Assembly: GCA_023382675.1 (NCBI GenBank)
Contig: JAHDWN010000051.1
Span: forward strand, 1 to 40,903
Reading direction: 5' to 3'
DNA: 40,903 nucleotides
DNA from: Anaerolineae bacterium
Lineage (GTDB): Bacteria > Chloroflexota > Anaerolineae > Aggregatilineales > Phototrophicaceae
A model generated the notes under the pieces. It ran no database searches and was not told where the DNA came from. It was given only the letters and a program-made list of their open reading frames with translations. Below, piece after piece: positions 23,353 to 38,488 of the stretch (positions are counted from its first letter, which is position 1; the number at the start of each line of letters is the position of its first letter). Both the position numbers and the translations under genes were made by a program.

Positions 23353-24141
23353 TTAGAGAATCTTCTTCAGCATGGCAGCGACGGCCTGGTAGACTGGCGA
23401 GTCATCGCCAAGCTGCACCAGCGGACGCCCGGCGAATTCGAACGACGACAGCTCATCGTCGGCGGGGACGACGCCCAGCAGCGGGATGTCCAGCGCGTCG
23501 ATGCGTGCCTTGAGCGGCGCGGGGATCTCCGGTTCGCGCAGCCCGTTCAGGATCAAATAGGCGTGCTCGATGTGGATGTCCAGTTCGTGGCGGAACGAGG
23601 CCACGCGCTCGGCGGCGACCAGCCCACGCTGCGTCGGATCGCTGACGACGAGCAGAAAATCGACATCGCGCGTCGTGCGGCGGCTGAGATGTTCCAGCCC
23701 GGCCTCGTTGTCGATGACGATGTAGCGATAATTCTTGCTGATGCCGTCGATGACGTCGCGCAGGTTGTGATTGACAGCGCAGTAACAGCCGGGGCCCTCC
23801 GAGCGGCCCATCGCGATCAGGTCGAACTGCGGCCCTTCGGCGAGTGACGAGCGAATGTGATACTCCAGGTAATCGCGCTTGTTCATACCGCCCGGCAGCG
23901 TCCCCATGGCTGCGCCGCCCGCGCCGAGCGACTGCTTGACCTGCTCCAGAATGTCCTCGCGGATGTCGCCAACCGTCCATTCGAGATCCAACCCCAGCAC
24001 CATGTTCAGATTGCTGCTGGGATCGGCATCTATCGCCAGGATCGAGCCGGATTGCACCTGCATCAGATACTTGACAATCATGGCAGAGATGGAAGTCTTG
24101 CCGACGCCGCCTTTGCCTGCAAGTGCAATCGTCGTCGTCAT
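23353..24141 (-). CDS. cooC: CooC-type nickel-insertion ATPase (second copy)
   Basis: This 262-residue MinD/SIMIBI ATPase matches the proteins that help insert nickel into CODH or ACS. It has the deviant Walker A GKGGVGKTS (9-17), switch residues in AIDADPSSNL (36-45) and a CxC metal motif, GPGCYCAVN with Cys119 and Cys121. VIDNEAGLEHLSRR is the typical CooC switch II. It overlaps the upstream CooC-like gene by 4 bases and is the last gene of the operon. Whether it serves CooS or AcsB (an AcsF role) cannot be decided from sequence. Confidence 0.88.
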   Translation of the reverse strand: MTTTIALAGKGGVGKTSISAMIVKYLMQVQSGSILAIDADPSSNLNMVLGLDLEWTVGDIREDILEQVKQSLGAGGAAMGTLPGGMNKRDYLEYHIRSSLAEGPQFDLIAMGRSEGPGCYCAVNHNLRDVIDGISKNYRYIVIDNEAGLEHLSRRTTRDVDFLLVVSDPTQRGLVAAERVASFRHELDIHIEHAYLILNGLREPEIPAPLKARIDALDIPLLGVVPADDELSSFEFAGRPLVQLGDDSPVYQAVAAMLKKIL

Positions 24142-24941
24142 AATGGTTGTTCCCCCGTCTTGGCGAGTTTTAGCTCGCGCTTGAGATCGTTAGCGATTTG
24201 CTCCGCAGCCTTGCGCAGCGGCGGGGCATAGTCATAGACTGCCGCACCGAGGCGGTCGGCCTCATGAACCGCGTTGCTGGCGGGCAGGTAGCCCAGTAAC
24301 GGGATGCCGGGCGATTCCTTTTGCAGGAACAGCCCTTCGGCTTCCGTGCGCACCTTGTTGCCAACCAGCCAGAGGCGGTTCAGGCCGATATCCTGCGCCA
24401 GCTTCTTGATCAACGCCGCCGTGCCCAGGCTGCGATGGGTCGGCTCGGCGACGACCAGCAGCGCATCGACGAAATCGACCGTCGCGCGCCCCAGGTGCTC
24501 GACACCGGCATACATATCCAGGATCAGCACGTCGTCTTCGCGCAGCAGCAGATGCGTAAACAGCGTCTTGAGCAGGGCGCTTTCCGGGCAGATGCAGCCG
24601 GAACCGCCGACCTCGACGCGTCCCATCTCCAGCAGGCGCACGCCGCGATGCTGAACACTGAACTTCTCAGGGATGTCATCGACGCGCGGGTTGATGGTGA
24701 AGAAACCGCCCATCGTGCCCGCCTTTGCGCCGGTGCGTTCCTCAATCAGTTCGCCCATCTCCGCAATCGGATGCAGCTGCCGGCGCAGCTCGATGGGGAA
24801 GCCTAACGCTTCGGCCAGGCATGGCGCGGGATCGGCGTCGACCGCCAGCACATCCCGCCCGGCATCGGCGCAGACCTGAGCCAGCAGCGCCGATAATGTC
24901 GTCTTTCCCACTCCACCTTTGCCGGTGATTGCGAGTTTCAT
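24138..24941 (-). CDS. cooC: CooC-type nickel-insertion ATPase (first copy)
   Basis: This 267-residue SIMIBI ATPase starts MKLAITGKGGVGKTT, with Walker A at 7-15 and AVDADPAPCLAEALG after it. The CxC motif is SGCICPE (Cys116, Cys118). ILDMYAGVEHLGRATVD is the switch II region, typical of CooC/AcsF. It differs clearly from the neighbouring copy (IALAGK versus LAITGK; CIC versus CYC), so this is not a recent duplication; the two may serve the nickel sites of CooS and AcsB separately. The start has GAGGA 8 bases upstream, 46 bases after the MetVF fusion gene. Confidence 0.88.
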   Translation of the reverse strand: MKLAITGKGGVGKTTLSALLAQVCADAGRDVLAVDADPAPCLAEALGFPIELRRQLHPIAEMGELIEERTGAKAGTMGGFFTINPRVDDIPEKFSVQHRGVRLLEMGRVEVGGSGCICPESALLKTLFTHLLLREDDVLILDMYAGVEHLGRATVDFVDALLVVAEPTHRSLGTAALIKKLAQDIGLNRLWLVGNKVRTEAEGLFLQKESPGIPLLGYLPASNAVHEADRLGAAVYDYAPPLRKAAEQIANDLKRELKLAKTGEQPL

Positions 24942-24987: not shown

Positions 24988-26469
24988 TTAATGGACCTGA
25001 AGCGATTCGACTTCCTGCTTGGATGCGAAATCTGGCGGCAGCAATCCGGCCTCGGTCACGATGCGCGGCACAATCTCTTCCCAGCCAACAGCCATGAGAT
25101 GGATGCCATGCACCCCCTGCATATGCTTGATCTTCTCGATAATCTCCAGCGCAATCGCGATGCCTTCTTCCGCTGCGCCGTCACCTGCGGCTTCCATCCG
25201 GTCGAGCAGCGGCTGCGGAATGAAGACGCCCGGTACTTCGTTGTGCATGTACTGCGCCATCTTCAGCGTTTTCAGCGGCGTGACGCCGACCAGGATGTAG
25301 ACTTTGTCCAATATATCACGTTTAGCCAGTAGATTCAGCCAGGTTTCCAGCCCATCCGGATCGTAGACGAGGTTCGTCTGGAAGAACTGCGCGCCTGCGT
25401 TGACCTTCTTGTGCTCGCGGATCGCCTGGAACTTCGGTTCGGAGGCGAAGGGCGAGGCTGCCGCGCCCAGGAACATCATCGGCGGATCTTTGAGCTTGCG
25501 TCCGTCCAAGTAGTGGCCTTCGTCGCGCATCCGGCGCAAAATCCACAGCATCTGGATCGAATCGATGTCGATGATGTCGGAGCGGCTGAGCGGCGCTGGC
25601 CCCATACGGCTGTGATCGCCGGAGAGGCAGAGCACGTTGCGGATGCCGAGCGCGCTCGCGCCGATGACCTCGGATTGCAGGCCGACACGAGTCCGGTCGC
25701 GGGCCGCGATTTGCAGCACCGGTTCAGCGCCGTGCTGCATCGCCAGCGTGCTGCACGCGAGGCTGGACATGCGCGGCGTCGCCGACGGGTTATCGGTGAA
25801 GTTGATCGCCGCCACGTAGGGCTTGACCATCTCGACGTTGCTGCACAGTTTACCGGTCGCGGTGCTCAACGGCGGCGCGACCTCGGCTGTCACCACGAAT
25901 TCCCCGGCGCGCAGACGGCGTTCGAGTTCGGAGGCGGGTTCGGTATAGGCGGGCGGATGATACTCGGAGTCGCCCTGCCACCAATCGGGCTGGCGCACGG
26001 GAGAGAAGACCGAGTCCCACGTCAGGGCGCGCTCCTTGACGTCGCGCGAGAGCATCCCACGGGTGAATTTGCCGACGCCAACTTTGCGCATCTGGACGAC
26101 GACATCGCCCCACGTCTCCGTGCCGATCTTGTCCCAGTCGATGGGCGGCAGCACTTCGAGCAGCTTCTCTTCGCGGCCCATCGCAAACGAACGTTCGTAG
26201 ATCTTGTACCAGATGCAGGGGCGGGTTTCGTCGACGTAGCAGTGCTCCTCGGTCGATCCGCCGCAGGGGCCATTGCGCGCCCCCTTTGGGCACTCCATCG
26301 GGCAGATGAAGGCCGTCTCCTGCAGCAAACAGTTACCACACATGCGGCAGCCGAACATTGGCCCTTTTACCCAGCGCTCGACAGTCGCCAGCAAGCGACG
26401 ACCAAACGGTTCGTGCTTAAAAGGGTAGTAGGGTGGCTGCCAGCGGCGTCCGGGCGTAAAACCAGGCAT
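24988..26469 (-). CDS. metF: MetV-MetF fusion: methylenetetrahydrofolate reductase with N-terminal Cys-rich domain
   Basis: This is a 493-residue protein. Residues 1-~110 form a Cys-rich module with GCRMCGNCLLQ, CPMECPKGARNGPCGG and a later CYVD...CIWY: eight cysteines (41, 44, 47, 56, 60, 69, 77, 85). This is the MetV/DUF5981-type domain that is a separate subunit in many acetogens. From ~190 (ASELERRLRAGEFVVTAEVAPP) to the end is a TIM-barrel MTHFR with NFTDNPSATPRMSS, VLCLSGDHSRMGP and AQFFQTNLVYD. It makes 5-methyl-THF for AcsE (or runs in reverse). The start has GGGAG 9 bases upstream, 18 bases after acsE. Confidence 0.9.
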   Translation of the reverse strand: MPGFTPGRRWQPPYYPFKHEPFGRRLLATVERWVKGPMFGCRMCGNCLLQETAFICPMECPKGARNGPCGGSTEEHCYVDETRPCIWYKIYERSFAMGREEKLLEVLPPIDWDKIGTETWGDVVVQMRKVGVGKFTRGMLSRDVKERALTWDSVFSPVRQPDWWQGDSEYHPPAYTEPASELERRLRAGEFVVTAEVAPPLSTATGKLCSNVEMVKPYVAAINFTDNPSATPRMSSLACSTLAMQHGAEPVLQIAARDRTRVGLQSEVIGASALGIRNVLCLSGDHSRMGPAPLSRSDIIDIDSIQMLWILRRMRDEGHYLDGRKLKDPPMMFLGAAASPFASEPKFQAIREHKKVNAGAQFFQTNLVYDPDGLETWLNLLAKRDILDKVYILVGVTPLKTLKMAQYMHNEVPGVFIPQPLLDRMEAAGDGAAEEGIAIALEIIEKIKHMQGVHGIHLMAVGWEEIVPRIVTEAGLLPPDFASKQEVESLQVH

Positions 26470-26487: not shown

Positions 26488-27426
26488 TTACAGCGCCGAA
26501 GTCTCCTGTTGGAGGTAGGCATCGGCATAAATGACTTTGTTCAGCAATACTTGTACCGTCTTCCAAATAGCGAGCTGTTCAGGATCGCTCATGTCTACGT
26601 CTTCGATGCTCGGTGCTTCCGACGCCGCAATGCGATCATGCAGCTTCAGATACAACCGACCGACCGGCGTGCTTTCGTCGCGCTCTTCGATGATGCGGAC
26701 GGTCTCTTTGAGCGGCTCGTCGAGCGGGTTGGCGATCATCATCTTCAAGCCCACGCCCATGAGCATGGCGCAGTAGGTGCGGTTGATGAGCGGGCGGTTC
26801 TCGTTCGGTACGGCGTTGGAAACGTTCGAGAGGCCGACCGAGATCGCCGGCGGCGGGTCCCAGGCGAACTGAAGTGTGCGGATGGTTTCGATCAACTGTG
26901 GGCAGTATTCCTGGCAGCCGGAGACCGTCAGCACCAGCGGGTCGATGATCAGGTCTTCCATCGGGTAGTCGATCTCCATCATGCGCGGGATCAACTTCTC
27001 GAGGGCGATGTTGACGCGCTCGTCGGCGCTGACCGGGATACCACTCGCGCCCATCGTCAGCGCGATCAGGCGGGCGTTGTACTGCTTGGCGATCAGCGGC
27101 ACTTTTTCCAGCCGCTCCGGCTCGGCGGAGGTCGAGTTGATGATCGGCTTGGCCTTGCTGACCTTCTTGAGACCGGCCTCGATGCCGAGGATATTCGTGC
27201 TGTCGAAGCTGAGCGGCACATCGACCACCGCCTCGACCGTTTCGACCATCCACGGGAAGACTTCTGCCCAGTCGTTCTTGCGCGGGCCGAGGTTCAGGTC
27301 AAGCGCCTCTGCGCCAGCCTCCACCTGTTTTACGGCCAGTTCCTGGAAGAACTTCGCGTCGCGCGCTTTGAGCGCTTCTTTGACCTTCTCAGAAATGATG
27401 TGGATATTCTCACCAATAATATACAT
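26488..27426 (-). CDS. acsE: methyltetrahydrofolate:corrinoid/iron-sulfur protein methyltransferase
   Basis: This 312-residue pterin-binding-fold protein, a little longer than the usual ~262, moves the methyl group of 5-methyl-THF to Co(I) of AcsCD. Visible features are MYIIGENIHI, AGAEALDLNLGPRKND (Asp and Asn for pterin binding), PLSFDSTNILGIEAGL, PIINSTSAEPERL and ISVGLSNVSNAVPNENRP. The extra C-terminal ~45 residues (IEDVDMSDPEQLAIWKTVQV) are helical. The start has GAGGAG just upstream, 11 bases after acsV. Confidence 0.94.
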   Translation of the reverse strand: MYIIGENIHIISEKVKEALKARDAKFFQELAVKQVEAGAEALDLNLGPRKNDWAEVFPWMVETVEAVVDVPLSFDSTNILGIEAGLKKVSKAKPIINSTSAEPERLEKVPLIAKQYNARLIALTMGASGIPVSADERVNIALEKLIPRMMEIDYPMEDLIIDPLVLTVSGCQEYCPQLIETIRTLQFAWDPPPAISVGLSNVSNAVPNENRPLINRTYCAMLMGVGLKMMIANPLDEPLKETVRIIEERDESTPVGRLYLKLHDRIAASEAPSIEDVDMSDPEQLAIWKTVQVLLNKVIYADAYLQQETSAL

Positions 27427-27437
27427 CTACTTGCTCC

Positions 27438-29357
27438 TCATGTGGTGACTGCTGGCTGCACACTGGGAAAACGCGAGAGATCCGTGTGCGGCAAGAACAG
27501 CGCGGACGTGAACGCCTCATAAAACGTGTTATCTGCTGAAAGCTCGATGTAGGTCATGCGCGAGGCAATCGCCCGGATCTGCGCCCGCGCCTGTTTATCC
27601 AGCAGCCCAAGATACGCCCCGCGCACGGACGTGTTGCCCAGGAAGTGGAAATGTTCCCAGGGCATATCCGGCAGCAGGCCGATTTCAACCGCTTTTTCGA
27701 CGTTGATATATTTGCCGAACGAGCCGCCGACCAGCACCTGTTCCGCCGTCTCCAGCGGGATGCCCATGCGCTCTGCCAGGACGGTGAACCCGGCGTAGAT
27801 GGCTGCTTTGGCGCGGATCAGGTTGTCGATGTCCACGCGCGTGATGGCGATGTCGCGGCCATGCGCGGTTTCGCTGCCCCAGGCGACGACGTATTCCGGG
27901 CCATGTTCGCCTGTGCGGACGCGCGGCGTCGGCAGCGTGAGATTGATGTTACCGCCTTTGTCGATGACTCCGGTCAGCAGCATTTCTGCCATCAGCGCGA
28001 TCAGACCGCTGCCGCAGATGCCAACCGGTTTGTCACTAAAGATGACGCGATAGGTGGGTTCGTAGGTGTCGCTGTTGATCCACACCTCCTCGATAGCGCC
28101 GCTGGTCGCGCGCATCCCGTTGATGACGCCGCTGCCCTCGAACGCCGGGCCTGCCGAGCAAGCGCAGGTGATGAGCCACTCGTTGTTACCGAGCACCGTT
28201 TCGCCGTTCGTGCCGATGTCGATGAACAGCGTGACGGCTTCGACGTCTTCCAGACCGGACGAGAGCACCCCGGCAGTGATGTCCGCGCCGACGTAGCTGG
28301 CGACACCGGGCAGACAGTCCACGGTCGCATCCGGGTGGATGTTCAGCCCGACTTCACGCCCGGTCAGCGTGGGCACGTCGTTGACGGCGGTCACAAACGG
28401 CGACAGGCGGATGCTTTCTGCCGGGATGTCCAGCAGCAGGTGCATCATCGTGCTGTTACCAGAGATCGTCGCTTTCATCACGTCCGTCGGCTGGGCGAGC
28501 ACGCGCTTGCAGGCGGTTTCGAGCAAGCCGTTGATCGTCTCCAGCACGAGGTCGCGCAGTTGGCCGTGGTCGCCATTCCTGCTGTTCTTGGTCGCGTAGA
28601 TGATGCGCGAGATCACATCTTCGCCGCGCTCGATCTGGCGGTTGTATTCGGCGACCTGCGCACGCACCTCGCCGGTCAACAGATTGACCAGCCAGAGCGT
28701 GACGGTCGTCGTGCCGATGTCAACCGCGACACCCCAGAGCGGAGCATCGGCGGCGACGTGGTCGGGTTTGAGATCGATCAGGCGCGCGGGGCAGTCAGGG
28801 CAGTCCCAGGCTTCGGTGTCGAGCACTGCCGTCACCTGCCAGTCGCCCTCACGCAGCGTGCGCCCAAGCTGGCGCAGCTGTGCCAGTGACGCCCGCGCCG
28901 CTTCGATGCCTTCTGCGCGCAGCGCGGTCAACAGGCGGCTCCAATCGTCGCGCTGGTCGTCCATGTTCGGCGGCGCAAGTGTCAGCGCCACGCGCCGGAC
29001 GGTCTGGACAGCCTGCGGATCGTAACCCGCCGGGACTTTGACTTCGGCGGCGGTGAGATCGGTTTTCAGGCGGCGTTCGATTTTCTCCTGCGGCAGCACG
29101 GTGATCGAAACGTCGCCCTCAACCACGGATTGGCAGGCCAGGGCATAACCGGCGGCAATATCGTCTGCGGAGAGGCGCAGGGTGCTGCGGCGGCGCACAG
29201 TACCTTCGGTGACGAGGACGGCGCAGCGTCCACAGCGGCCTTGACCGCCGCAGGGCTGTTGGATGTCCACACCCGCCCGGTGAGCGGCTTCAACGAGGAG
29301 TGAACCGGTCGGAACCTGTACAGGCTGCGTGCCAACGGTGACAGTGTGATCGGCCAT
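27438..29357 (-). CDS. acsV: corrinoid protein reductive activator (RACo/AcsV, ASKHA domain)
   Basis: This 639-residue protein restores inactive Co(II) corrinoid protein to Co(I) with ATP. Residues 1-~85 are a plant-type [2Fe-2S] ferredoxin domain with Cys36, Cys42, Cys45 and Cys75 (CGGQGRCGRC...C). A linker follows to ~200. Residues 200-~610 form the ASKHA actin-like ATPase fold with GVAVDIGTTTVTLWLV, TISGNSTMMHLLL, LFIDIGTNGETVLG and ACSAGPAFEGSGVI. The start lies 11 bases after a GGTAGGG site. A 173-base gap with a strong hairpin separates it from acsC. Confidence 0.95.
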   Translation of the reverse strand: MADHTVTVGTQPVQVPTGSLLVEAAHRAGVDIQQPCGGQGRCGRCAVLVTEGTVRRRSTLRLSADDIAAGYALACQSVVEGDVSITVLPQEKIERRLKTDLTAAEVKVPAGYDPQAVQTVRRVALTLAPPNMDDQRDDWSRLLTALRAEGIEAARASLAQLRQLGRTLREGDWQVTAVLDTEAWDCPDCPARLIDLKPDHVAADAPLWGVAVDIGTTTVTLWLVNLLTGEVRAQVAEYNRQIERGEDVISRIIYATKNSRNGDHGQLRDLVLETINGLLETACKRVLAQPTDVMKATISGNSTMMHLLLDIPAESIRLSPFVTAVNDVPTLTGREVGLNIHPDATVDCLPGVASYVGADITAGVLSSGLEDVEAVTLFIDIGTNGETVLGNNEWLITCACSAGPAFEGSGVINGMRATSGAIEEVWINSDTYEPTYRVIFSDKPVGICGSGLIALMAEMLLTGVIDKGGNINLTLPTPRVRTGEHGPEYVVAWGSETAHGRDIAITRVDIDNLIRAKAAIYAGFTVLAERMGIPLETAEQVLVGGSFGKYINVEKAVEIGLLPDMPWEHFHFLGNTSVRGAYLGLLDKQARAQIRAIASRMTYIELSADNTFYEAFTSALFLPHTDLSRFPSVQPAVTT

Positions 29358-29530: not shown

Positions 29531-30871
29531 CTACAACGACTGCTTCATGAACGCGGGCAAGTCCACGGCTTCGCGCGGGCCGACCCGAATCTCCCAGTCG
29601 GGCAGTTCCTCTTCCATTTCGCCGGAGAGCACGGCGACGTGCCCCGGGATGACGATGCGCTTCTTATTGACCTTGTCGGCCACGTTGAATGCCTTGACCG
29701 ACTTGGCGATCCGCTCGGCGTCGAATTTGCCCGCCGCCCAGGCGGTGAGCACGCTCATGCCTTCCGCATCCGCAACCAGCAGCCAGGCCGGCAGGCCAGA
29801 GCTTTCGACCTCGTTGGCGACGCTGAAGTAGGTGATGCTGAAGTTGGTCGTGACCAACACGGGCGAATCTGGTGTCGGATTGTTGATCTCGTAGATGCCG
29901 GGCTGCACCTGAATCGGTTTCTGCGGATCGGTGTAGATGTTTTCGCGCAGCACCAACAGCGGGTAGGCTGTTTCCGGTGCGAAGCGATCCAGGACGACGA
30001 AGCCTGCATACTTGGCGATGGCGTGCGCCGCCAGCATCGATTCCTCGTAGGCTTCCTCGGCATCGCACGGGAAGGCGATGACCGGGTAGCCGAGCGGGCG
30101 GAAGTTCTTGCGCAGCGCCAGGCGGCGAATCTGCGTGTTCAGCGCCAGCGACGTGCCGAGTTTGCGCGCCGCCGGGTCGAGTACCAGGTCAGGCACGCCG
30201 TATTCTTTCAGTTTGGTCGCCAGGTCGGCCAGGCCGTCGAGCGACTCGGCAATGACCGTGAGCGCCGCGCCGTGCTGCTTGGCGAGATCGCCCATCGCCT
30301 GCCAGTTGCTCGCGTCCGCGCCGTACATCAACGGATGTTCGCCGTCGACGTTACGCAGACCGGCAGCCATGACATTCGGGTCGCGGCTGATGAGAATCAG
30401 CGGGCGATGGCTGACCTGGCGCACCGCTTCAATCGCAGCGGAAAACGCCGCCGGGTCGCCTTTGACCGCCTCGACCGCGAAGCCGTCGATCATGAGTTCG
30501 CGGCCAACGTAATTGACCATGTAGCTGTCGGCAGCCGATACAGCGGCCTTGATGTCGTCGGCTGTCTGGTCGTCACGCACGCGCAGGAAGAAGCCGGGCT
30601 TGTTGTAAAACGTCTTTTCGTGGCGGAAAAGCACGACTTCGTTGCCAGCCTTGACCTCGTGGCCGTTGGCCGTCAGTGTGATCAGCCGCACCGGCGGCTC
30701 GGAGGCTTCAGCCAACTGCGCCTTAGCTTCATCTTTCACGTGCGGACAGGCCGATAGTTCCACCTGCTTGGCTGCCAGTTTCATGGCGAAGGCCAGGCAG
30801 GTTGGGAAACCACAATCCTTGCAGTTCGTCTGCGGCAGCAGTTTGTAGATTTGAATGCCGGAGAGTGCCAT
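29531..30871 (-). CDS. acsC: corrinoid/iron-sulfur protein large subunit
   Basis: This 446-residue protein is the large (gamma) subunit of the CoFeSP that carries the methyl group from AcsE to the A-cluster of AcsB. The N-terminal [4Fe-4S] domain has Cys17, Cys20, Cys25 and Cys42 (NCKDCGFPTC...ACP). A TIM-barrel domain follows (DGFAVEAVKGDPAAFSAA, PLILISRDPNVM), and the C-terminal corrinoid-binding part includes TTNFSITYFSVANEVESSGLP. It lies 15 bases downstream of acsD, its partner. Confidence 0.96.
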   Translation of the reverse strand: MALSGIQIYKLLPQTNCKDCGFPTCLAFAMKLAAKQVELSACPHVKDEAKAQLAEASEPPVRLITLTANGHEVKAGNEVVLFRHEKTFYNKPGFFLRVRDDQTADDIKAAVSAADSYMVNYVGRELMIDGFAVEAVKGDPAAFSAAIEAVRQVSHRPLILISRDPNVMAAGLRNVDGEHPLMYGADASNWQAMGDLAKQHGAALTVIAESLDGLADLATKLKEYGVPDLVLDPAARKLGTSLALNTQIRRLALRKNFRPLGYPVIAFPCDAEEAYEESMLAAHAIAKYAGFVVLDRFAPETAYPLLVLRENIYTDPQKPIQVQPGIYEINNPTPDSPVLVTTNFSITYFSVANEVESSGLPAWLLVADAEGMSVLTAWAAGKFDAERIAKSVKAFNVADKVNKKRIVIPGHVAVLSGEMEEELPDWEIRVGPREAVDLPAFMKQSL

Positions 30872-30886
30872 ACCTATATCCTTGCC

Positions 30887-31861
30887 TCATGCCATTTCAG
30901 GCGAAATTGTCAGTTCGTCGATTGCTTTGTGGATGCGCCGGACGCTTTCCGGGTGGCGCAGGACGACGATGTCCGCGCCGGACTCGACCAGCGCGACGGC
31001 CGTCAGCGTCTCCCAGTTGATCGCCCGCTCGGCCCAGTCGCCCCAGGCTTCCGGGACATCCTGGCCGACCTTCGATTCTTTGGTCTTCCAGGCCTCGAAG
31101 CCGGGCGTGACGAGCATCGGCAGTTGCGTCATCGCGTCGCCTTGCAGCGCCGCCAGCCGCAGCCGCTCCATGACCGAGTAGCCGTACTCGATGCCATAAC
31201 CGAGCGCGCCGGTCGTCGGGTCCATCAGGATGCGATCCAGCGGCAGGCCCATGTCGTGAATGAGGATGTTGAGCTGCTTGGCGAGGTTCACGTCCATCGG
31301 CGTGCGCGCCGTCACGCAGTGATCATTGGCCAGGGCCGCGGCCACAATCGTGCGGTAGTTCTTGTCTTCGCAGATGCCCAGGGCGAGTCGTTCGCCCTTG
31401 GTGGCCTCGGCGACCGCGAGCAGCAGCTCGTTGTCAGCCTCGGCCTGGCCGGGGCCGAAGACGATCAGCGGCAGGGCGCTGGCGCCGAGAACAGCCTTGG
31501 TCGCGGCGACGGCAGCCTGTGGGGTGGTCGGCGCACCGTCGGCATCGGTCAGCGTGAGCGCGAGCACCAACAGATCCGCGCCGACTGCTTCGGCCTGTTT
31601 GGCCCAGGCGGCGGGATCATTGGCCGCGTCGCCCCAGACATCCAGCAGCAGCGGCGACCAATCGGTTGGACGGCGTTCTTTAATTTCGACCGCGACGACC
31701 GGGCGGTTCGGAGCAGTCTGTTCGAAGTTCATGAAGGGCAGGGTCTTCTGGCCGCCGACGGTGATTGTCCGCGACCGTGTCCCGCCTTCGGCTGAGGTTG
31801 CGCCCAGAGTGACTGTGCGAACTGTCCCTTCCCAGGAGTCCTTTGGAATCTCGACCGGCAT
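30887..31861 (-). CDS. acsD: corrinoid/iron-sulfur protein small subunit
   Basis: This 324-residue TIM-barrel protein is the small (delta) subunit of CoFeSP. It has VTLGATSAEGGTRSRTITVG near the N-terminus, LPFMNFEQTAPNRPVVAVEI, HCVTARTPMDVNLAKQLNIL, and ILMDPTTGALGYGIEYGYSV near residue 215, all typical of AcsD/CdhD. The start has GGGAG 9 bases upstream and lies 6 bases after the CBS gene. Confidence 0.96.
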   Translation of the reverse strand: MPVEIPKDSWEGTVRTVTLGATSAEGGTRSRTITVGGQKTLPFMNFEQTAPNRPVVAVEIKERRPTDWSPLLLDVWGDAANDPAAWAKQAEAVGADLLVLALTLTDADGAPTTPQAAVAATKAVLGASALPLIVFGPGQAEADNELLLAVAEATKGERLALGICEDKNYRTIVAAALANDHCVTARTPMDVNLAKQLNILIHDMGLPLDRILMDPTTGALGYGIEYGYSVMERLRLAALQGDAMTQLPMLVTPGFEAWKTKESKVGQDVPEAWGDWAERAINWETLTAVALVESGADIVVLRHPESVRRIHKAIDELTISPEMA

Positions 31862-31867
31862 AAAACT

Positions 31868-32377
31868 TTACTCCCAATCAGATGACGGGGCATTGCGGCG
31901 TGCCGCGTCCCGTTTTTCGATAAATGTTTGCAATGGCGCTTGCCGCGCTGCCTTAATACCCAGATCGGTTAACTCACTGTCATCCTGCGCGGCCAGATGG
32001 CGCAGAAAATGCCGATACGTGAGCACGCCCGCCGGATAGGTCAAGCCTTCGGCATGGTGCGTCAGGAAGACTACCCGGACACGCTGATCGCGCATGATTT
32101 GCGCCGCAGCCGCCAGGGGAATGTCTGGCGGGAGCTGCGGCACGTCATCGCGCATTACCTTTTCGGCGGTCAGTTCGCGGCAGTCATCGCGCGAATAAGC
32201 CTTGATCAGTTCGTCCTGGCTGATCATGCCAACGCCATGGCCCTCCGGATTGAGGACGACGACCGCTTCCAGATCCTTTTCCAGCAGCAGCCTTGCGATT
32301 TCGGGGACGGGCGCATCCAGGGCGCACGTCGCCACACCAACGGTCATCAAGTCGCGGACGAGCCTGCGTTCAGCCAT
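31868..32377 (-). CDS. two-CBS-domain protein inside the CODH/ACS operon
   Basis: This is a 169-residue protein with two CBS domains, about 8-63 (VRDLMTVGVATCALDAPVPE, VVLNPEGHGVGMISQDEL) and 73-130 (EKVMRDDVPQLPPDIPLAAA, VVFLTHHAEGLTYPAGVL), and a ~35-residue basic C-terminal tail. CBS pairs bind AMP, ATP, SAM or other nucleotides and usually regulate a partner. It is fused to nothing and sits between acsB (11 bases) and acsD (6 bases), so a role sensing energy or SAM state for the CODH/ACS complex is plausible but inferred. The start has AGGGG upstream. Confidence 0.9.
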   Translation of the reverse strand: MAERRLVRDLMTVGVATCALDAPVPEIARLLLEKDLEAVVVLNPEGHGVGMISQDELIKAYSRDDCRELTAEKVMRDDVPQLPPDIPLAAAAQIMRDQRVRVVFLTHHAEGLTYPAGVLTYRHFLRHLAAQDDSELTDLGIKAARQAPLQTFIEKRDAARRNAPSSDWE

Positions 32378-32388
32378 CGGTCATCCCC

Positions 32389-34686
32389 TTAGAATATCGG
32401 GTCCATCACCAGGGCCGGATGGTTGTGTTCTTCCAGCCAGGCCAGCAGTTCTTCGACCGTCGTCACCGACCGTTCATCGGCGATGCGGTCAAGCAAATCC
32501 GGGTCGCCTTCGCGTTCGGCGACGAGCTTGAACTCGTCGGCCATCGTCTCTTTCAAGACGCTGCTCATCCAGACGACGCGCTTGAAGCCGCCGTCCGCCG
32601 AGATGAACTTGGGGCTGACGAGGTAGAACTTACCGACGCCCATGACGCCAGGGGTCTGCATACCGCCACCGGCCATGCCTGCCAGCGTACTGAAGGTCAT
32701 GCCCGCCGGAGTCATGCTGGTGTCTTCACGGTTGACGACCATGACGCCGTTGGTCTCCGGGATGAGCATGACGATGCACTCGAAGCAGCCGCAGGCAGTC
32801 ATTGGGTTCTCCATGATCGAATACATGGAGACTTCGCCGACCTTGCCATGCGACGCGCGCTCGGCGTAGTCGTTGATGCCCGTCCAGTAGCCCTTGGTGC
32901 CGTCCAACTGCGAGCCGAGCTTGATCGGCTGGTTCGGGCCAGTCGGGTTGATGCTGAAGGAGGCCTTGCAATCGAGCCAGTTGTACGCGCCGCACAGACC
33001 CAGACGCTCGGGGCTGACGATGCAGACGTGATCCGGCGCGAACGACTGGCAGAGCGTGCAGCTATAGAACTCATTGACGGCGTCGTCGGTCAGGTCGGCC
33101 AGGCGCTTGTTGCGATAGTCATACGCCTCGCGCGCCTTCGCCAGCCAATCCTGCACCTTGTCCGGCTCGGTGTAGATCGTGACCTGCACTTTGTCCACAA
33201 TCGCGCCGAAATCGGCGTGCAGACGGGCATGGAGGATCTTGCCGAAGTGCTCCAGGTTGAAGCCCTTGTCCGCCGCTGCCGTGGAGATGCGGATCCAGGC
33301 GATGTCGCGCTGCCCGATGTGCTGGATGCCGGACGCGCCGTTGACGAAGTAGTGGATCTGGCGCTCCAACACCGGCTCGAAGTCCTTCTGCATGCCGCGT
33401 CCGGCGACCTCGACGACGATGCCCATGTCCATGTGCCCCTGCGCCTCGATGTCATCGAAGTTGGGGCCGACCACCTCGATCTTGCCGTCGGTGAGGGCGT
33501 CCAGATCGACCATGTGCAGATATTCGAAGCAGCGCGAGTACTTGCCGCCGAATTCGACGCGCATGTCGGACTTGCGCACGACCTCGCCTTCGAAGGCCGA
33601 GCCGTAGGGCACGGGCACCGGCACGTTGGCGACCTTGACCTTGACGCCGCGCACTTCGATGCACTTCTGCACCAGCAGTTCGGCGCGCTCCAGGTCGTCC
33701 GCGCCGGCGATCTCGTTGAAGGGCATACTGACGACGTGTTCGTAAGTGGTGACGCCGGTCGGCAGAATTTCGGGGATGACCGTATCGGCAATGACCGGGA
33801 AGCCGAAGTTGATCGCCCCGGCAGCCGCCGCATACTTCAGGTCATCGACTTCGCCGAGGGCGAGGACGAAGGCGAAGACGCGCTCCTTGTTGTACATCAG
33901 GATTTCGCGCGACATACCGCCCTTCATGCCGCCGAACGTCAGCGCCGAGCGGACGGCGAAACCGAGCGCATAAATGGCGCTCAGGGTGTCTGTCCCGAAG
34001 GGTACGGTGTAGGTGTCGTAACCGAGTTCGACGCCTTCTTCGTGCAGTTGGTGGATGATGCTCCGCCCGTTGACGTTGCCGGAAAGGAAGGTCAGGATGT
34101 TGCGCCGCTGAAGCTCGCGCACGATCTTGACGGCGACCTCGTTCGACTTGGCCGCGCCCACAATCGCCGCGAAGCCGGGCATACGCCCGTCTACGAGCTG
34201 GATGCCCCAGGTGCGGAGCTGGATGTCGTCGATGGGGCCATTGAGATGGCCGTCGTGGCCGTTGCCTGTGCTATCACCATTGCCGAGATCCGGGCTGGTG
34301 AACGACGTGCCGCCCGCCAGGTGGAAGCCCGCCATCGGCTCCGGTTGCAAGTCATAGACGAAGCGCAGGGCTTCGATGACTTCGGCGGCGAGCAGCGTTG
34401 CCATGCCGCTGTCGAGCGTTTCACCCAGGTAGGGCGTCCAGTGGTTCGGCGCGGGGATCGGGTGCAGCAGCGCGCGTGCCTGCTGCAGTACCGGCCCCAA
34501 CTGACCGACGGTTTCGATCTGCTGGCCGGTCATGCCGAAGATCAAAGGCAGATAATACGCGGTGTTGGGAAACGCGACGGGTGTCTCCGGCCCCTTGTCG
34601 GCCATGGCCTTGCCGAACATGCGCTCGGCTTCTGTCACCAGCGCGTTGGCCCCACGAATGGCACGGGTTGCAATATAACGTGACAT
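32389..34686 (-). CDS. acsB: acetyl-CoA synthase (CODH/ACS complex, bacterial alpha subunit)
   Basis: This 765-residue enzyme joins a methyl group from AcsCD, CO and CoA into acetyl-CoA. All six A-cluster cysteines are seen: Cys543, Cys546, Cys555 and Cys565 (CTLCQSFAPDHVC...LCG) for the cubane, and Cys632 and Cys634 in ACGCFEC for the dinickel site, with the same spacing as the Moorella enzyme (506, 509, 518, 528, 595, 597). The N-terminal domain that docks CODH is present. It is longer than the usual ~730, partly through a Gly/Asn/His-rich insert at ~131-153 (GNGDSTGNGHDGHLNG). The start has AGGAG 10 bases upstream, 13 bases after cooS. Confidence 0.97.
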   Translation of the reverse strand: MSRYIATRAIRGANALVTEAERMFGKAMADKGPETPVAFPNTAYYLPLIFGMTGQQIETVGQLGPVLQQARALLHPIPAPNHWTPYLGETLDSGMATLLAAEVIEALRFVYDLQPEPMAGFHLAGGTSFTSPDLGNGDSTGNGHDGHLNGPIDDIQLRTWGIQLVDGRMPGFAAIVGAAKSNEVAVKIVRELQRRNILTFLSGNVNGRSIIHQLHEEGVELGYDTYTVPFGTDTLSAIYALGFAVRSALTFGGMKGGMSREILMYNKERVFAFVLALGEVDDLKYAAAAGAINFGFPVIADTVIPEILPTGVTTYEHVVSMPFNEIAGADDLERAELLVQKCIEVRGVKVKVANVPVPVPYGSAFEGEVVRKSDMRVEFGGKYSRCFEYLHMVDLDALTDGKIEVVGPNFDDIEAQGHMDMGIVVEVAGRGMQKDFEPVLERQIHYFVNGASGIQHIGQRDIAWIRISTAAADKGFNLEHFGKILHARLHADFGAIVDKVQVTIYTEPDKVQDWLAKAREAYDYRNKRLADLTDDAVNEFYSCTLCQSFAPDHVCIVSPERLGLCGAYNWLDCKASFSINPTGPNQPIKLGSQLDGTKGYWTGINDYAERASHGKVGEVSMYSIMENPMTACGCFECIVMLIPETNGVMVVNREDTSMTPAGMTFSTLAGMAGGGMQTPGVMGVGKFYLVSPKFISADGGFKRVVWMSSVLKETMADEFKLVAEREGDPDLLDRIADERSVTTVEELLAWLEEHNHPALVMDPIF

Positions 34687-34699
34687 ATAACACTATCTC

Positions 34700-36718
34700 C
34701 TATTTGCCCGGCGTTCCATAGAGTGCCGCCTGGCGCTCGGCCAGAGGCAGAGCTTCGAGTTCGCGCATCCGCGCGTCACCGCTGCGGCCAAAACGCTGCG
34801 GGTCATATTCCGGCAGCCCAAGTTCGGCGCGTTTCTTGTCGATGTGCGCCAGCGTGCGGGCGATCATCTCGTCCGGGTCATCGATGAATTCCAGCTTGCC
34901 GCCGTAGAGTTCTTCCCAGCCTTCACTGATGTAGCGCAGGACGATGTCGCTGTCTTCGACTTTGTCCGGCATACCGCTGATGGGCGACGAGCCGCCGAAC
35001 ATGACGTAAGCGCCGGAAGCAACGCAGTAGGTGCCGATGGCGAGCGCTTTCTCGCTCATCCATTCAGGGGCCAGGCCGACAGCGGGGACTTGATCGATGT
35101 CGTCACCGAGGCCGCCTTCTTCGACCATCTGCGTGAGCACGGTCAGGATGCGGGTGTTATCCACGCACGACCCCATGTGCAGGACGGGCGGGATGCCGAC
35201 GGTCTCGCAGATTTCGCGCAGACCCGGCCCGACCTTGTCCAGCCCCGCCTCGCCGAGCAGCAAGCCCAGCTTGGCGCTGGCAATCGCGCCGCAGCCCGTC
35301 TGCACGACCAGCACGTCCTGCTTGAGCAGTTCGCTGGTGACGTGGGTGTGGAGATAATCGTGCTGGCTGCGCGGGTTGTTGCAGCCGACGATGGCCGCCA
35401 CGCCGCGAATGCGACCAGAGATGATCGCGTCGTTGAGCGGGCGGAAGGACGCGCGGTAGCTGCCGCCGAGCATGTAGTTGATGTACTCGTGCGAGAAGCC
35501 GGGGACGAGATCCTCGCGCACGTCCGGGATCTGGATGTCGCCGCGATTCTTGTAGTTGTCAATCGCCTCGCGCAGGATCTGCTTGGCAATCGTGAGCGCC
35601 TTGTGCTCATCGAATTCGATGTGCGTCGCGCCCTTGATCTTGACCTTGGGCGAAGTCGTGATGATCTTGGTGTGGAAGTTCGTCGCCAGCCCGACCAGCG
35701 CCTGCATGATGCACTGGACATCGACGACCATGGCTTCGACCGCGCCGGTCAGGATCGCCAGTTCTTGCTGGAGGAAGTTGCCCGCCGCCGGGACGCCCTG
35801 GCGCATCAGGATTTCGTTGGCGGTGCAGCAGATACCGGCGAGGTTGACGCCCTTCGCGCCCGCCGCCTTGGCATACTCGATGATTTCCGGTGTCTGGGAG
35901 GCAGCGACAATCATCTCACTCAGGGTCGGCTCGTGGCCATGGACGATTACGTTGACCATGTCTTGCTTGAGCACACCCAGGTTGGCCTGCCCCAGGAGCG
36001 GCGCGGGCGTGCCGAACAGGATGTCAGCCACGTCGGTGGCGATCATGCTGCCGCCCCAGCCATCCGCCAGCGCCGTGCGGACGGCGTGCTGCAGAATGTG
36101 TTCCGGGTCTTGATCGTCGCCGATGTGCGTTCGGTGCAGCGCCTCGACGACCTCGCGGTCGATGCCGCGCGGCACAACTTTCGTGTCGCGCCAGAGTTTC
36201 TGACGCTTGGCCGGGGCACGCTTCAGGGGGGCAACCTCGCCGCGCTGCTGGCCGAACTGCGCCAGATACAGATCAGCGAGATCGTTGGCGATCTCTTCCG
36301 GCGCGCGGCCTTCGATGGGGATGTCATAATGGGCGGCGACGGTGCGCAGCTTGGCAACGTCGCGGATGTAATAGCCTTCGGCCTCGCCATTGGCGACCGC
36401 CTTGAGCGTGAAGGCCATATCGCGCCCGTGATCCGAATGTGCCGCTGAACCGGCAGCGATGGCGCGGATGAAGTTGCGCGCCTGGATCGTGTCGATAGTC
36501 GCGCCGCAAACGCCGGTCTGGCCTTCCTTGGTCAGGCGGCACGGCCCCATGCCGCAGAGCTTGCAGCACATCCCCGCGCCACCGATGTTGCACGGCGCCA
36601 TGTTTTCGGCGCGGGTGAACGCTGTGCCGACGCCGATCTGCTCGGCGCGGATCAGCATTTCCTGTGCCGCAGGGTCGATGCTGAGCTGTTCAGGAGTTTT
36701 CTTTTCCTTAGCCATCAT
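34700..36718 (-). CDS. cooS: anaerobic Ni-Fe carbon monoxide dehydrogenase, catalytic subunit
   Basis: This 672-residue CODH (also called AcsA) interconverts CO2 and CO for AcsB. Cluster ligands: Cys43 and Cys51 for the D-cluster; Cys52, Cys55, Cys60 and Cys71 for the B-cluster (CCKLCGMGPC...VCG). C-cluster segments are VHGHEP (His), GICCTAN, VDVQCIM, VGCNNPR, QTGCGAIAS and MGSCVDNTR. The ATG at 36718 shares a base with the stop of the HMA-like gene; the next codon, ATG at 36715, is better spaced from GGGAG (7 bases) and may be the true start. It works as a dimer and lies second in the operon. Confidence 0.97.
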   Translation of the reverse strand: MMAKEKKTPEQLSIDPAAQEMLIRAEQIGVGTAFTRAENMAPCNIGGAGMCCKLCGMGPCRLTKEGQTGVCGATIDTIQARNFIRAIAAGSAAHSDHGRDMAFTLKAVANGEAEGYYIRDVAKLRTVAAHYDIPIEGRAPEEIANDLADLYLAQFGQQRGEVAPLKRAPAKRQKLWRDTKVVPRGIDREVVEALHRTHIGDDQDPEHILQHAVRTALADGWGGSMIATDVADILFGTPAPLLGQANLGVLKQDMVNVIVHGHEPTLSEMIVAASQTPEIIEYAKAAGAKGVNLAGICCTANEILMRQGVPAAGNFLQQELAILTGAVEAMVVDVQCIMQALVGLATNFHTKIITTSPKVKIKGATHIEFDEHKALTIAKQILREAIDNYKNRGDIQIPDVREDLVPGFSHEYINYMLGGSYRASFRPLNDAIISGRIRGVAAIVGCNNPRSQHDYLHTHVTSELLKQDVLVVQTGCGAIASAKLGLLLGEAGLDKVGPGLREICETVGIPPVLHMGSCVDNTRILTVLTQMVEEGGLGDDIDQVPAVGLAPEWMSEKALAIGTYCVASGAYVMFGGSSPISGMPDKVEDSDIVLRYISEGWEELYGGKLEFIDDPDEMIARTLAHIDKKRAELGLPEYDPQRFGRSGDARMRELEALPLAERQAALYGTPGK

Positions 36719-37113
36719 TAATCTCCCTCATCCATAGATTTGACGACCCCAACACCGGGGCACGGCCACAGCGGACGCCCGGCATTGGCGACCTCCTGAG
36801 CAAAGCTGACGCTTTTTCTGGCCGGTTCGAACGCGCTCGTATGACGGAAATACGTAACCGGCTGGTCGCCTCCATAAGTGGCCGCGCTGCTCTCTGTCGG
36901 GAGCGCCAATTCCTGGAGGTAGCCGGCGTCGGCGAGACTGGCTTCGATGGCCTCTGCACTGATCTGCGCTGGGTCGAAGCTGATCTCCGCAGTGTGGAAA
37001 CAACTGCTTGCGTAGACATCAGCCACGCCGGCGAGCGACTGCAGAATGCGCCGCACTTCGGTAACGTGATGGTCTGCGTACATGAGAGGAAGGGTCAAGG
37101 TCAGTGTTTGCAT
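36718..37113 (-). CDS. HMA-like (ferredoxin-fold) protein at the head of the CODH/ACS operon
   Basis: This is a 131-residue protein. Residues 1-66 read as the beta-alpha-beta-beta-alpha-beta fold of heavy-metal-associated domains (MQTLTLTLPL, then HVTEVRRILQSLAGVADVYA, AEISFDPAQISAEAIEASLADAGY). The metal loop that is normally MxCxxC is MYADHH here. The second half is less ordered and ends with RPLWPCPGVGVVKS, holding a Cys in a Pro/Gly loop. The ATG at 37113 has no ribosome binding site; a GTG at 37161 would add 16 unlikely residues. Its TAA overlaps the cooS start, so the two are coupled. A role in metal delivery or docking for CODH is inferred from position only. Confidence 0.7.
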   Translation of the reverse strand: MQTLTLTLPLMYADHHVTEVRRILQSLAGVADVYASSCFHTAEISFDPAQISAEAIEASLADAGYLQELALPTESSAATYGGDQPVTYFRHTSAFEPARKSVSFAQEVANAGRPLWPCPGVGVVKSMDEGD

Positions 37114-37441: not shown

Positions 37442-38488
37442 TTACCCGGCCCGTAGAAGTTCGCCGGTGCGCACCAGCGTTTCCAGGACGCGCTCGGCGA
37501 TCTCGACCGAGGCCGACCCCAGTCCGCAGCTGGGCGTGATCAGGCTGCGCGCTGCAAAATCGTCCGGCGAGATGTGAATGTCACGCAGCGCGGCTTTCTG
37601 GCTGATTTGTTCGATGCCTGCACGCAGGCGCTCCGCCAGTTGGTCAGCCGTGACCGACGTAATCTGATCGTTGTTGGGGACAATGCCCCATGACACCACG
37701 CCACCGCGATCCAGGTAGGCACGCAGCTCAGCCGGATAGAGCGCCAGATTCTCCACGTAGCCGTAAGCATCGAGATTGAGAATATCGACCGAGGTTGCCA
37801 GCAAGACCGACCAATCGGTGTTGGCGCAGCAATGGACGCCCGCGAGTGCGCCCTCGCCGTGAATGGCGGCGAAGACTTCGTCGAGCATGGCGATCACCTG
37901 CTCGCGACTCAGGCTGATGAAAGCCGAACCGAACGAGGCCATGTATGGCTCGTCGACCACGATCATGACGTTGGGGCGGGCGGCGCGGAGTTGGCGCACC
38001 TGCCAGCGCGCGTTCATCGCCGCGTTCTTGACGATGGCATCGGCCAGATTGTCGTTGTAGAGCGCGGCGCGCAACGCCTGATCGGTGACGGTCAGCCCGA
38101 AGCTGATCGGGCCTGTGATTTGGCCTTTGGCCCAGCCGCCGGGGGCAGCCCGCAGCGCCTCCAGCATCGCGGGGAACTCGGCGGCATACGGGGGAGTCAG
38201 CGCGAACCAATCGACATCGTCCGCCAGGTAATGCTCGTAGAAGACTTCCAGCCCTGGGGTCAGATCGCCGGTCGTGTCGAACTGGATCTTCTCGTTGGCC
38301 TCGTCGAGCACGACGCCGGGCAGCGGCTGGCTGTACTGGACGTACATATTCTCGCGGAACGTCCGGCGGGGGAGCTGCGGCCAGGCGGGCACGTCCAACA
38401 TCCCGGCCAACCGCGCGCAGAGACCTGCGCCGTCTTTATGCGGCAGGCTGCCGACGTGGGTTGTCAGAAAGCGGAATTCGTGGGGCAT
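37442..38488 (-). CDS. mesB: core (folate-independent) methionine synthase, MesB-like
   Basis: This 348-residue protein is the size of the catalytic half of MetE, with no N-terminal folate domain. MetE-type features are THVGSLPHK (10-18), KGQITGPISFG (121-131), VVDEPYM (178-183), and the zinc ligands His219 and Cys221 (GVHCC) and Cys321 (ITPSCGLGS); the usual Glu ligand aligns with Asp240. Core MetE proteins take methyl groups from corrinoid proteins, and the MesB family occurs in anaerobes with the Wood-Ljungdahl pathway and is predicted to use CoFeSP. Location beside acsC and acsD fits this well. A different corrinoid methyltransferase role is possible. The start has GGGAG 8 bases upstream. 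Confidence 0.78.
   Translation of the reverse strand: MPHEFRFLTTHVGSLPHKDGAGLCARLAGMLDVPAWPQLPRRTFRENMYVQYSQPLPGVVLDEANEKIQFDTTGDLTPGLEVFYEHYLADDVDWFALTPPYAAEFPAMLEALRAAPGGWAKGQITGPISFGLTVTDQALRAALYNDNLADAIVKNAAMNARWQVRQLRAARPNVMIVVDEPYMASFGSAFISLSREQVIAMLDEVFAAIHGEGALAGVHCCANTDWSVLLATSVDILNLDAYGYVENLALYPAELRAYLDRGGVVSWGIVPNNDQITSVTADQLAERLRAGIEQISQKAALRDIHISPDDFAARSLITPSCGLGSASVEIAERVLETLVRTGELLRAG

Follow-up and report, generated by a model that had tools for sequence, protein, structure and literature searches.

The stretch of DNA analyzed here (the window) covers positions 1 to 40,903 of contig JAHDWN010000051.1, assembly GCA_023382675.1, of an Anaerolineae bacterium, 40,903 nucleotides in all; its minus strand carries an operon for carbon monoxide dehydrogenase and acetyl-CoA synthase (CODH/ACS). 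Directly upstream of cooS, the CODH gene of this operon, we saw a small gene for a protein similar to HMA domains, with no cysteine pair in its loop. It is a real, conserved accessory gene of Anaerolineae CODH/ACS operons, a variant of the HMA fold, and apparently it has not been described. The features needed here are the following.

36718..37113, minus strand: HMA-like, cysteine-loop-free protein, 131 amino acids; start codon ATG at 37113, stop codon TAA (36720-36718) included in the span
36913..37113, minus strand: predicted HMA-type ferredoxin-like domain, residues 1-67 (AlphaFold model and VIA-align)
37066..37083, minus strand: altered metal loop M11-Y-A-D-H-H16, at the place of MxCxxC (read from the sequence)
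36748..36768, minus strand: C-terminal WPCPGVG motif, residues 116-122, in the low-confidence tail (read from the sequence)
34700..36718, minus strand: cooS/acsA, Ni-CODH of the CODH/ACS operon (Pfam Prismane, 534 bits; TIGR01702, 609.6 bits, over its cut-off)
32389..34686, minus strand: acsB, acetyl-CoA synthase (Pfam ACS_CODH_B_C, CdhC, CODH_A_N)

The stop codon of the HMA-like gene and the ATG of cooS share one base, 36718. The MYADHH loop, the WPCPGVG motif and the overlap with cooS are as an earlier note on this DNA had described them; to these we add the strand.

Homology of the window protein to HMA domains appears weak but real at the sequence level. A Pfam scan with E-values up to 10 returned HMA (PF00403) alone, and no CooT; the match (E 3.4e-4, 21.4 bits) stayed below the curated cut-off of 24.8 bits, a threshold that two out of the seven further members scanned did pass (28.5 and 27.7 bits). 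In NCBIfam the six top-ranking models, of the CopZ and MerP kind, had E-values from 2.9e-5 to 6e-4, all with scores far below the cut-offs, and among sequences of PDB chains we observed matches to ATP7B (4.8e-6) and MerP (0.002). AlphaFold, given 78 orthologous rows, predicted a beta-alpha-beta-beta-alpha domain; the block means of its confidence score (predicted local distance difference test, pLDDT) were 93-98 over residues 1-70 and 39-66 in the tail. Foldseek placed MerP 1osd first (E 3.0e-5) and CopZ 2qif second among the matches to this model, and VIA-align superposed the model on 2qif with a Z score of 12.9 and a root-mean-square deviation of 1.6 over 68 residues, giving no fold for the tail, which that alignment hardly tested. 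Because the predicted model and both structural comparisons agree, the HMA-type assignment should be right for residues 1-67, and the structure that the earlier note had proposed was borne out by prediction.

Orthologues share 40-57% identity with the window protein. The ratio of nonsynonymous to synonymous substitution rates (dN/dS) was 0.04-0.22 for both domain and tail in seven of eight close pairs; the eighth gave 0.58 and 0.74, but at a dS of a mere 0.02-0.05. The gene is under purifying selection, and identity and low ratios together show that the open reading frame (ORF) did not arise by chance.

To see how the gene is distributed in the class, a profile built from DHH-type sequences was run against 396 Anaerolineae genomes, and the loops were read by coordinates with no motif filter. 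Profile matches were present in 148 genomes, CODH in 158, both in 145; the DHH-type gene proper was found in 146 genomes, 145 of which also had CODH. AcsB was seen in 151 genomes. Where CODH and AcsB were both present (144 genomes), the gene accompanied them in 137 cases; six further genomes had AcsB but neither CODH nor the HMA-like gene. The genomes being related, the linkage counts are not independent.

Gene pairs were counted for the 150 CODH places, and the AcsB places, among the matches listed. Within this set 98 CODH genes had acsB no more than 6 kb downstream, and in 95 of these 98 the HMA-like gene preceded CODH by no more than 700 bases. Among the remaining three, two had ferredoxin- and Nuo-like genes in between, with the HMA-like gene 4 kb upstream, and one was situated near a contig start. 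The 52 CODH genes of the set with no acsB within 6 kb were divided into 35 without and 17 with an HMA-like gene. For 14 of the 17 the contig ended within 2.5 kb downstream, leaving acsB beyond view; G079 had 3.4 kb left downstream, and acsB is located further off in its family; G054 and G212 had split acsB matches outside the listed AcsB places, those of G054 on the same contig. The 28 best-scoring CODH genes had neither acsB nearby (among the matches listed) nor an HMA-like gene. Seven genomes carried CODH and AcsB with no profile match (G052, G088, G115, G185, G198, G258, G316). In G052 and G088 the CODH genes read sit on contigs other than that of acsB; in G198 the CODH adjoining acsB is near a contig start and is preceded by NuoF/NuoG-like genes, an arrangement shared with G163 and G093, whose HMA-like gene is 4 kb upstream. 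The gene is dedicated to CODH/ACS operons in this class, and its partner is the acsB-linked CODH/ACS, not CODH in general; in this respect the earlier note needs correction.

Two side observations concern the CODH loci. In L148 and L167 (family f49) the HMA-like gene and cooS are set apart by some 4 kb of genes of ferredoxin and NuoE/F/G type (names based on sequence motifs), and the operon looks as though it had received an NAD-linked electron-transfer module. L224 and L225 are further CODH genes with no acsB match in the fetched stretch and with two ORFs upstream, one hemerythrin-like by its motifs, the other short and conserved.

A global scan of a species-genome collection used a loop-region pattern containing DHH, and is thus no test of DHH conservation; 80 of 113 relatives were kept. 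All 80 had the gene upstream of cooS on the same strand, with no more than about 200 bases to the start of cooS. The next gene was acsB in 73; the other seven sequences ended <2 kb after the gene. Chloroflexota accounted for 79 of the 80 loci (labelled as such or by one of its lineages), and L060 is labelled Actinomycetota. The linkage to cooS suggested by the earlier note is therefore conserved across Anaerolineae, in the class survey as well as in these loci.

The loop itself was readable in 148 of the 149 survey matches, the remaining one being a fragment that lacks it. It read [YFW][AG]DHH in 146 loops, with no MxCxxC among these; the other two, a CopA ATPase and a CopZ, had CxxC and came from genomes without CODH. 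The strictest conservation in the family is found where its relatives bind metal. In the source genome there are five other HMA matches, every one with CxxC. A sample of the phylum gave 12 further matches outside the class, eight with C[DEGQ]HC and four with [AG]DHH. The 0.9-3.4 kb fetched around the eight CxxC matches showed neither CODH nor AcsB; G493, one of the genomes concerned, carries AcsB on a different contig. Of these CxxC relatives 8/8 already have the His that comes first in the DHH loop, and 5/8 have an acidic residue before it; the change would thus consist mainly in replacement of the two cysteines by Ala/Gly and His. Besides the loop, alignment entropy showed good conservation of domain positions S36, G64 and Y65; zero entropy at D14, H15 and H16 holds by construction, the rows having been pre-filtered for DHH. 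From the ferredoxin topology, rather than from coordinates, we infer that S36, G64 and Y65 lie at the edge of the metal loop.

The tails fall into two main types. At the 149 places of the survey we counted 58 CPG-type tails, 74 tails of the [SA]G[ED][FHY]R type and 17 others, which include fragments and the two CxxC matches. In the global scan PCPG occurred in 73/80 loci and a Cys within the last 30 residues in 80/80. Residues R90, F104, C118, P119 and G120 were invariant across 78 clade-1 sequences. On a CooS tree (FastTree, 153 rows; 52 of 150 inner branches below 80% support) the tail type changed twice, rows with other tails being left uncounted. As a metal ligand common to the whole family the Cys of WPCPG is ruled out, since 74 of the 149 places end in the [SA]G[ED][FHY]R type, without Cys.

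We consider it possible, with a probability of about 45%, that the gene codes for an accessory protein dedicated to CODH/ACS of the Anaerolineae type, with metal handling, probably of Ni(II), as its task and with the tail used for docking. A role in metal handling is favored because the loop is conserved at the place of a metal site, because the operon encodes nickel enzymes, and because the gene tracks ACS; both CODH and ACS hold nickel. In a CopZ/MerP-type HMA domain a conserved (Ala/Gly)-Asp-His-His loop would have taken the place of the thiol site; such a loop would be suited to a borderline ion, with Ni(II) the likeliest, though both the binding and the identity of the metal are read from the loop. 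The conserved, probably disordered tail could dock the protein on CODH/ACS proteins of the same operon, and the protein would hold nickel for the enzyme or hand it on, in a direction that is likewise conjectural. The acetyl-CoA synthase side seems most plausible, since the gene tracks acsB and not CODH in general. There the protein would act beside the AcsF/CooC-type ATPases, which are thought to insert nickel into ACS. There would be room for another helper, since CooT is absent from the source genome (no match to PF10133 at E 0.01); of 40 gene-bearing genomes chosen out of the 146, 23 lack CooT and 17 have it. Two related ideas found no support: a replacement of CooT as a rule, given those 17 genomes, and a replacement of CooC, given the CooC-type ATPase in the same region and the CooC-like matches in flanks of 14/80 loci.

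Several observations weigh against this reading. CooC-type ATPases are already encoded in the region. The loop offers a possible ligand at one former Cys position only (His16), position 13 being Ala or Gly. The tails differ between the two branches, so tail docking is a guess. Extra N-terminal parts, superfluous for a plain carrier, occur in 26/146 members, 19 of them DNA-binding. Outside the class, 30 of 34 AcsB-bearing genomes of the phylum sample had no DHH-type match (E 1e-8). Among the four other-class genomes with the DHH type, G438 and G431 have cooS and acsB adjoining; in G435 and G423 (family f64) an unrelated ORF comes next, with no cooS in the 0.6 and 1.4 kb read, and the gene of G423 (L212) is down to 55 residues, having lost its middle part and kept ends like those of G435. 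With so few other-class genomes having the gene, two of them unlinked, it is not required for CODH/ACS as such; it can also come apart from CODH/ACS.

The N-terminal parts are the main reason to weigh a sensor or regulator, which we regard as possible but rather less likely: the HMA-like domain would respond to a metal (nickel or some other) or to the enzyme's state, and control the CODH/ACS operon, directly where a helix-turn-helix (HTH) is fused to it and otherwise via a separate partner. An in-frame BldC/MerR-like HTH precedes the domain in 19 of the 146 members. In three fusions scanned it passed the HTH_17 and MerR cut-offs; against the BldC model two fusions scored 66.5 and 72.7 bits, with the cut-off at 77. 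The predicted model of one fusion keeps both the HTH helices and the HMA domain folded, and the position of the gene, first in the operon, would suit a regulator. BldC itself, as far as the part of the source we used describes it, has no effector domain (PMC5859096). Fusions are found with either type of tail. The CooS tree requires seven changes of the HTH label (18 HTH rows, under a rule that may miss some); the HTH is alike in the different branches, which suggests an early fusion that was lost several times, repeated gain being the alternative. On the other side, 127/146 members have no in-frame HTH, the window protein among them, its in-frame upstream extension included. A separate HTH gene near unfused forms was not found in 78/80 global loci (flanks up to 6 kb); the remaining two loci carry this HTH, both fused. 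As members without HTH keep domain and tail, the domain should have a role of its own. The fusions point to sensing or regulation in some lineages.

In seven of the 146 members the N-terminal part is instead a Cys-rich stretch with CDFC. In L198-L204 (family f38) it runs CWQIR..CWEQ..PCCCAP..CDFC..HRRE in frame with the HMA-like domain (L198 is partly degraded), and two members scanned gave no Pfam or NCBIfam match for it. A fusion of the HMA-like domain to CooS was not present in the loci read, beyond which it was not sought.

The earlier note had proposed a His-based nickel carrier or a docking factor of CODH. The fold and the linkage agree with this proposal; the partner has to be CODH/ACS instead of CODH generally, and a sensor or regulator competes with it on account of the HTH (19/146) and Cys-rich (7/146) fusions. 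One could speculate that both roles occur, with the Asp-His-His site handling nickel or another borderline metal for acetyl-CoA synthase/CODH: most Anaerolineae would use the protein as a carrier, and the others would have it as the sensing part of a transcription factor of BldC type. Such a chaperone/sensor family, not yet described, is unlikely.

The next reading after the sensor or regulator, and an unlikely one, is a docking or assembly subunit free of metal, in which the HMA fold would be a scaffold, DHH would serve structure or protein contact, and the tail would bind AcsA/AcsB. Conservation in both tail types (the clade-1 invariants and the 74/149 [SA]G[ED][FHY]R ends) is consistent with it, and the low pLDDT of the tail modelled alone would fit folding on a partner, but conservation is strictest at the metal site of the relatives. 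A copper chaperone of the usual CopZ kind, intact or decayed, that came to lie beside cooS by accident would agree with CopZ, MerP and CopA domains being the nearest relatives in fold and sequence and with the shortened gene of G423 in another class, but it is ruled out for practical purposes by motif (no CxxC in 146/148 loops, while the five other HMA matches of the source genome all have it), by linkage (80/80 global loci; 95/98 acsB-linked CODH genes among the matches listed) and by selection (dN/dS 0.04-0.22 in 7/8 pairs).

Downstream of acsB the operon continues with the genes below.

31868..32377, minus strand: CBS-domain protein, between acsB and acsD (Pfam)
30887..31861, minus strand: acsD-like, corrinoid protein subunit (Pfam CdhD)
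29531..30871, minus strand: acsC-like, corrinoid Fe-S protein subunit (Pfam CdhD and FeS)
27438..29357, minus strand: RACo-type reductive activator, acsV-like (Pfam RACo domains)
26488..27426, minus strand: acsE-like methyltransferase (Pfam Pterin_bind)
24988..26469, minus strand: protein with methylenetetrahydrofolate reductase (MTHFR) and MTHFR C-terminal domains (Pfam)
24138..24941, minus strand: CooC-type ATPase 1 (Pfam CbiA/ArsA_ATPase)
23353..24141, minus strand: CooC-type ATPase 2 (name based on the P-loop and on matches at the positions that CooC1 matches in other loci)

On the same strand, 328 bases separate the HMA-like gene from its nearest upstream neighbor, which ends at 37442. 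With this gap, and with downstream genes that match a CODH/ACS operon by Pfam, the description of the HMA-like gene as heading the operon, made in the earlier note, appears to fit. A scan upstream of the gene gave one promoter-like site, scoring not above shuffled sequences, and no terminator; Rfam found no RNA in the window at the gathering score.

The upstream neighbor (37442-38488, minus strand), presumably UROD/MetE-like by its sequence, had no Pfam match at 0.001; homologues were present in the flanks of 13/80 global loci. The CBS-domain protein (31868-32377) had a homologue in 39/80 of the global relatives. In seven of the 80 loci tblastn revealed insertions of 185-539 amino acids in acsB, among them L019:4594-6279, L021:7970-9706 and L033:10248-10922. 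Pfam Intein_splicing matched 3/3 insertions scanned (one over the cut-off, two at 33.0 and 33.5 of 35.8 bits), and two of the three had LAGLIDADG. The intein sites are MTAC/CGCFEC and SCTLC/CQSFAP, which we take to be A-cluster cysteine motifs. Split AcsB matches in long frames in the class survey suggest further inteins.

In the open-access literature we found no description of the gene, as far as titles and the beginnings of abstracts show. The portions consulted of the main text of PMC13056359 do not contain 'heavy metal', 'HMA', 'Chloroflexota', 'hypothetical' or 'chaperone', and those of PMC6344411 and PMC7325909 contain neither 'heavy metal' nor 'HMA'. In the Wood-Ljungdahl pathway CODH/ACS is the key enzyme, and the delivery of nickel to it is understood in part only; the gene is a candidate for a maturation or sensing factor. 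It marks acsB-linked CODH operons across most of the class and could serve there as a genetic marker that tells CODH/ACS apart from other CODH genes. A DHH site on the HMA fold, if true, would be a new mode of metal handling for a very common fold; if DHH binds no metal, the gene remains a conserved component of CODH/ACS operons that has apparently not been described.

Several known systems invite comparison. HMA domains of CopZ, MerP and the CopA N-terminus resemble the window protein in sequence, in fold (Z up to 12.9), in the length of the domain and in where the loop sits; a further shared feature is Gly-Tyr after helix 2, typical of bacterial CopZ. They differ in that the DHH-type family has [YFW][AG]DHH instead of CxxC, an additional tail of ∼60 residues and a tie to the CODH/ACS operon; set beside the MxCxxC of CopZ, MerP and Atx1, the CxxC metallochaperones, the window protein reads MYADHH. 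With the CooC/AcsF ATPases it would share a presumed task, nickel maturation of CODH/ACS; those are P-loop ATPases and not homologous to it. BldC-type MerR-like regulators share their HTH with 19/146 members; the window protein has none, and the fusions carry an HMA-like domain whereas BldC, in the part of its description used above, has no effector domain. The described nickel helpers of CODH, according to the sections of two papers that we used, are CooC, CooT and CooJ (PMC6006190, PMC13056359). CooT and CooJ are, like the window protein, small proteins of CODH operons and possible nickel helpers beside CooC, with roles that the review, in the part we used, leaves open (PMC6006190). The same part describes CooT as an all-beta dimer that binds nickel via Cys2, and CooJ as having a His-rich C-terminus with 16 His (PMC6006190). 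Unlike CooT, the window protein matches HMA alone in Pfam; unlike CooJ, it has no His-rich C-terminus, its four His in 131 residues being at positions 15, 16, 40 and 91.

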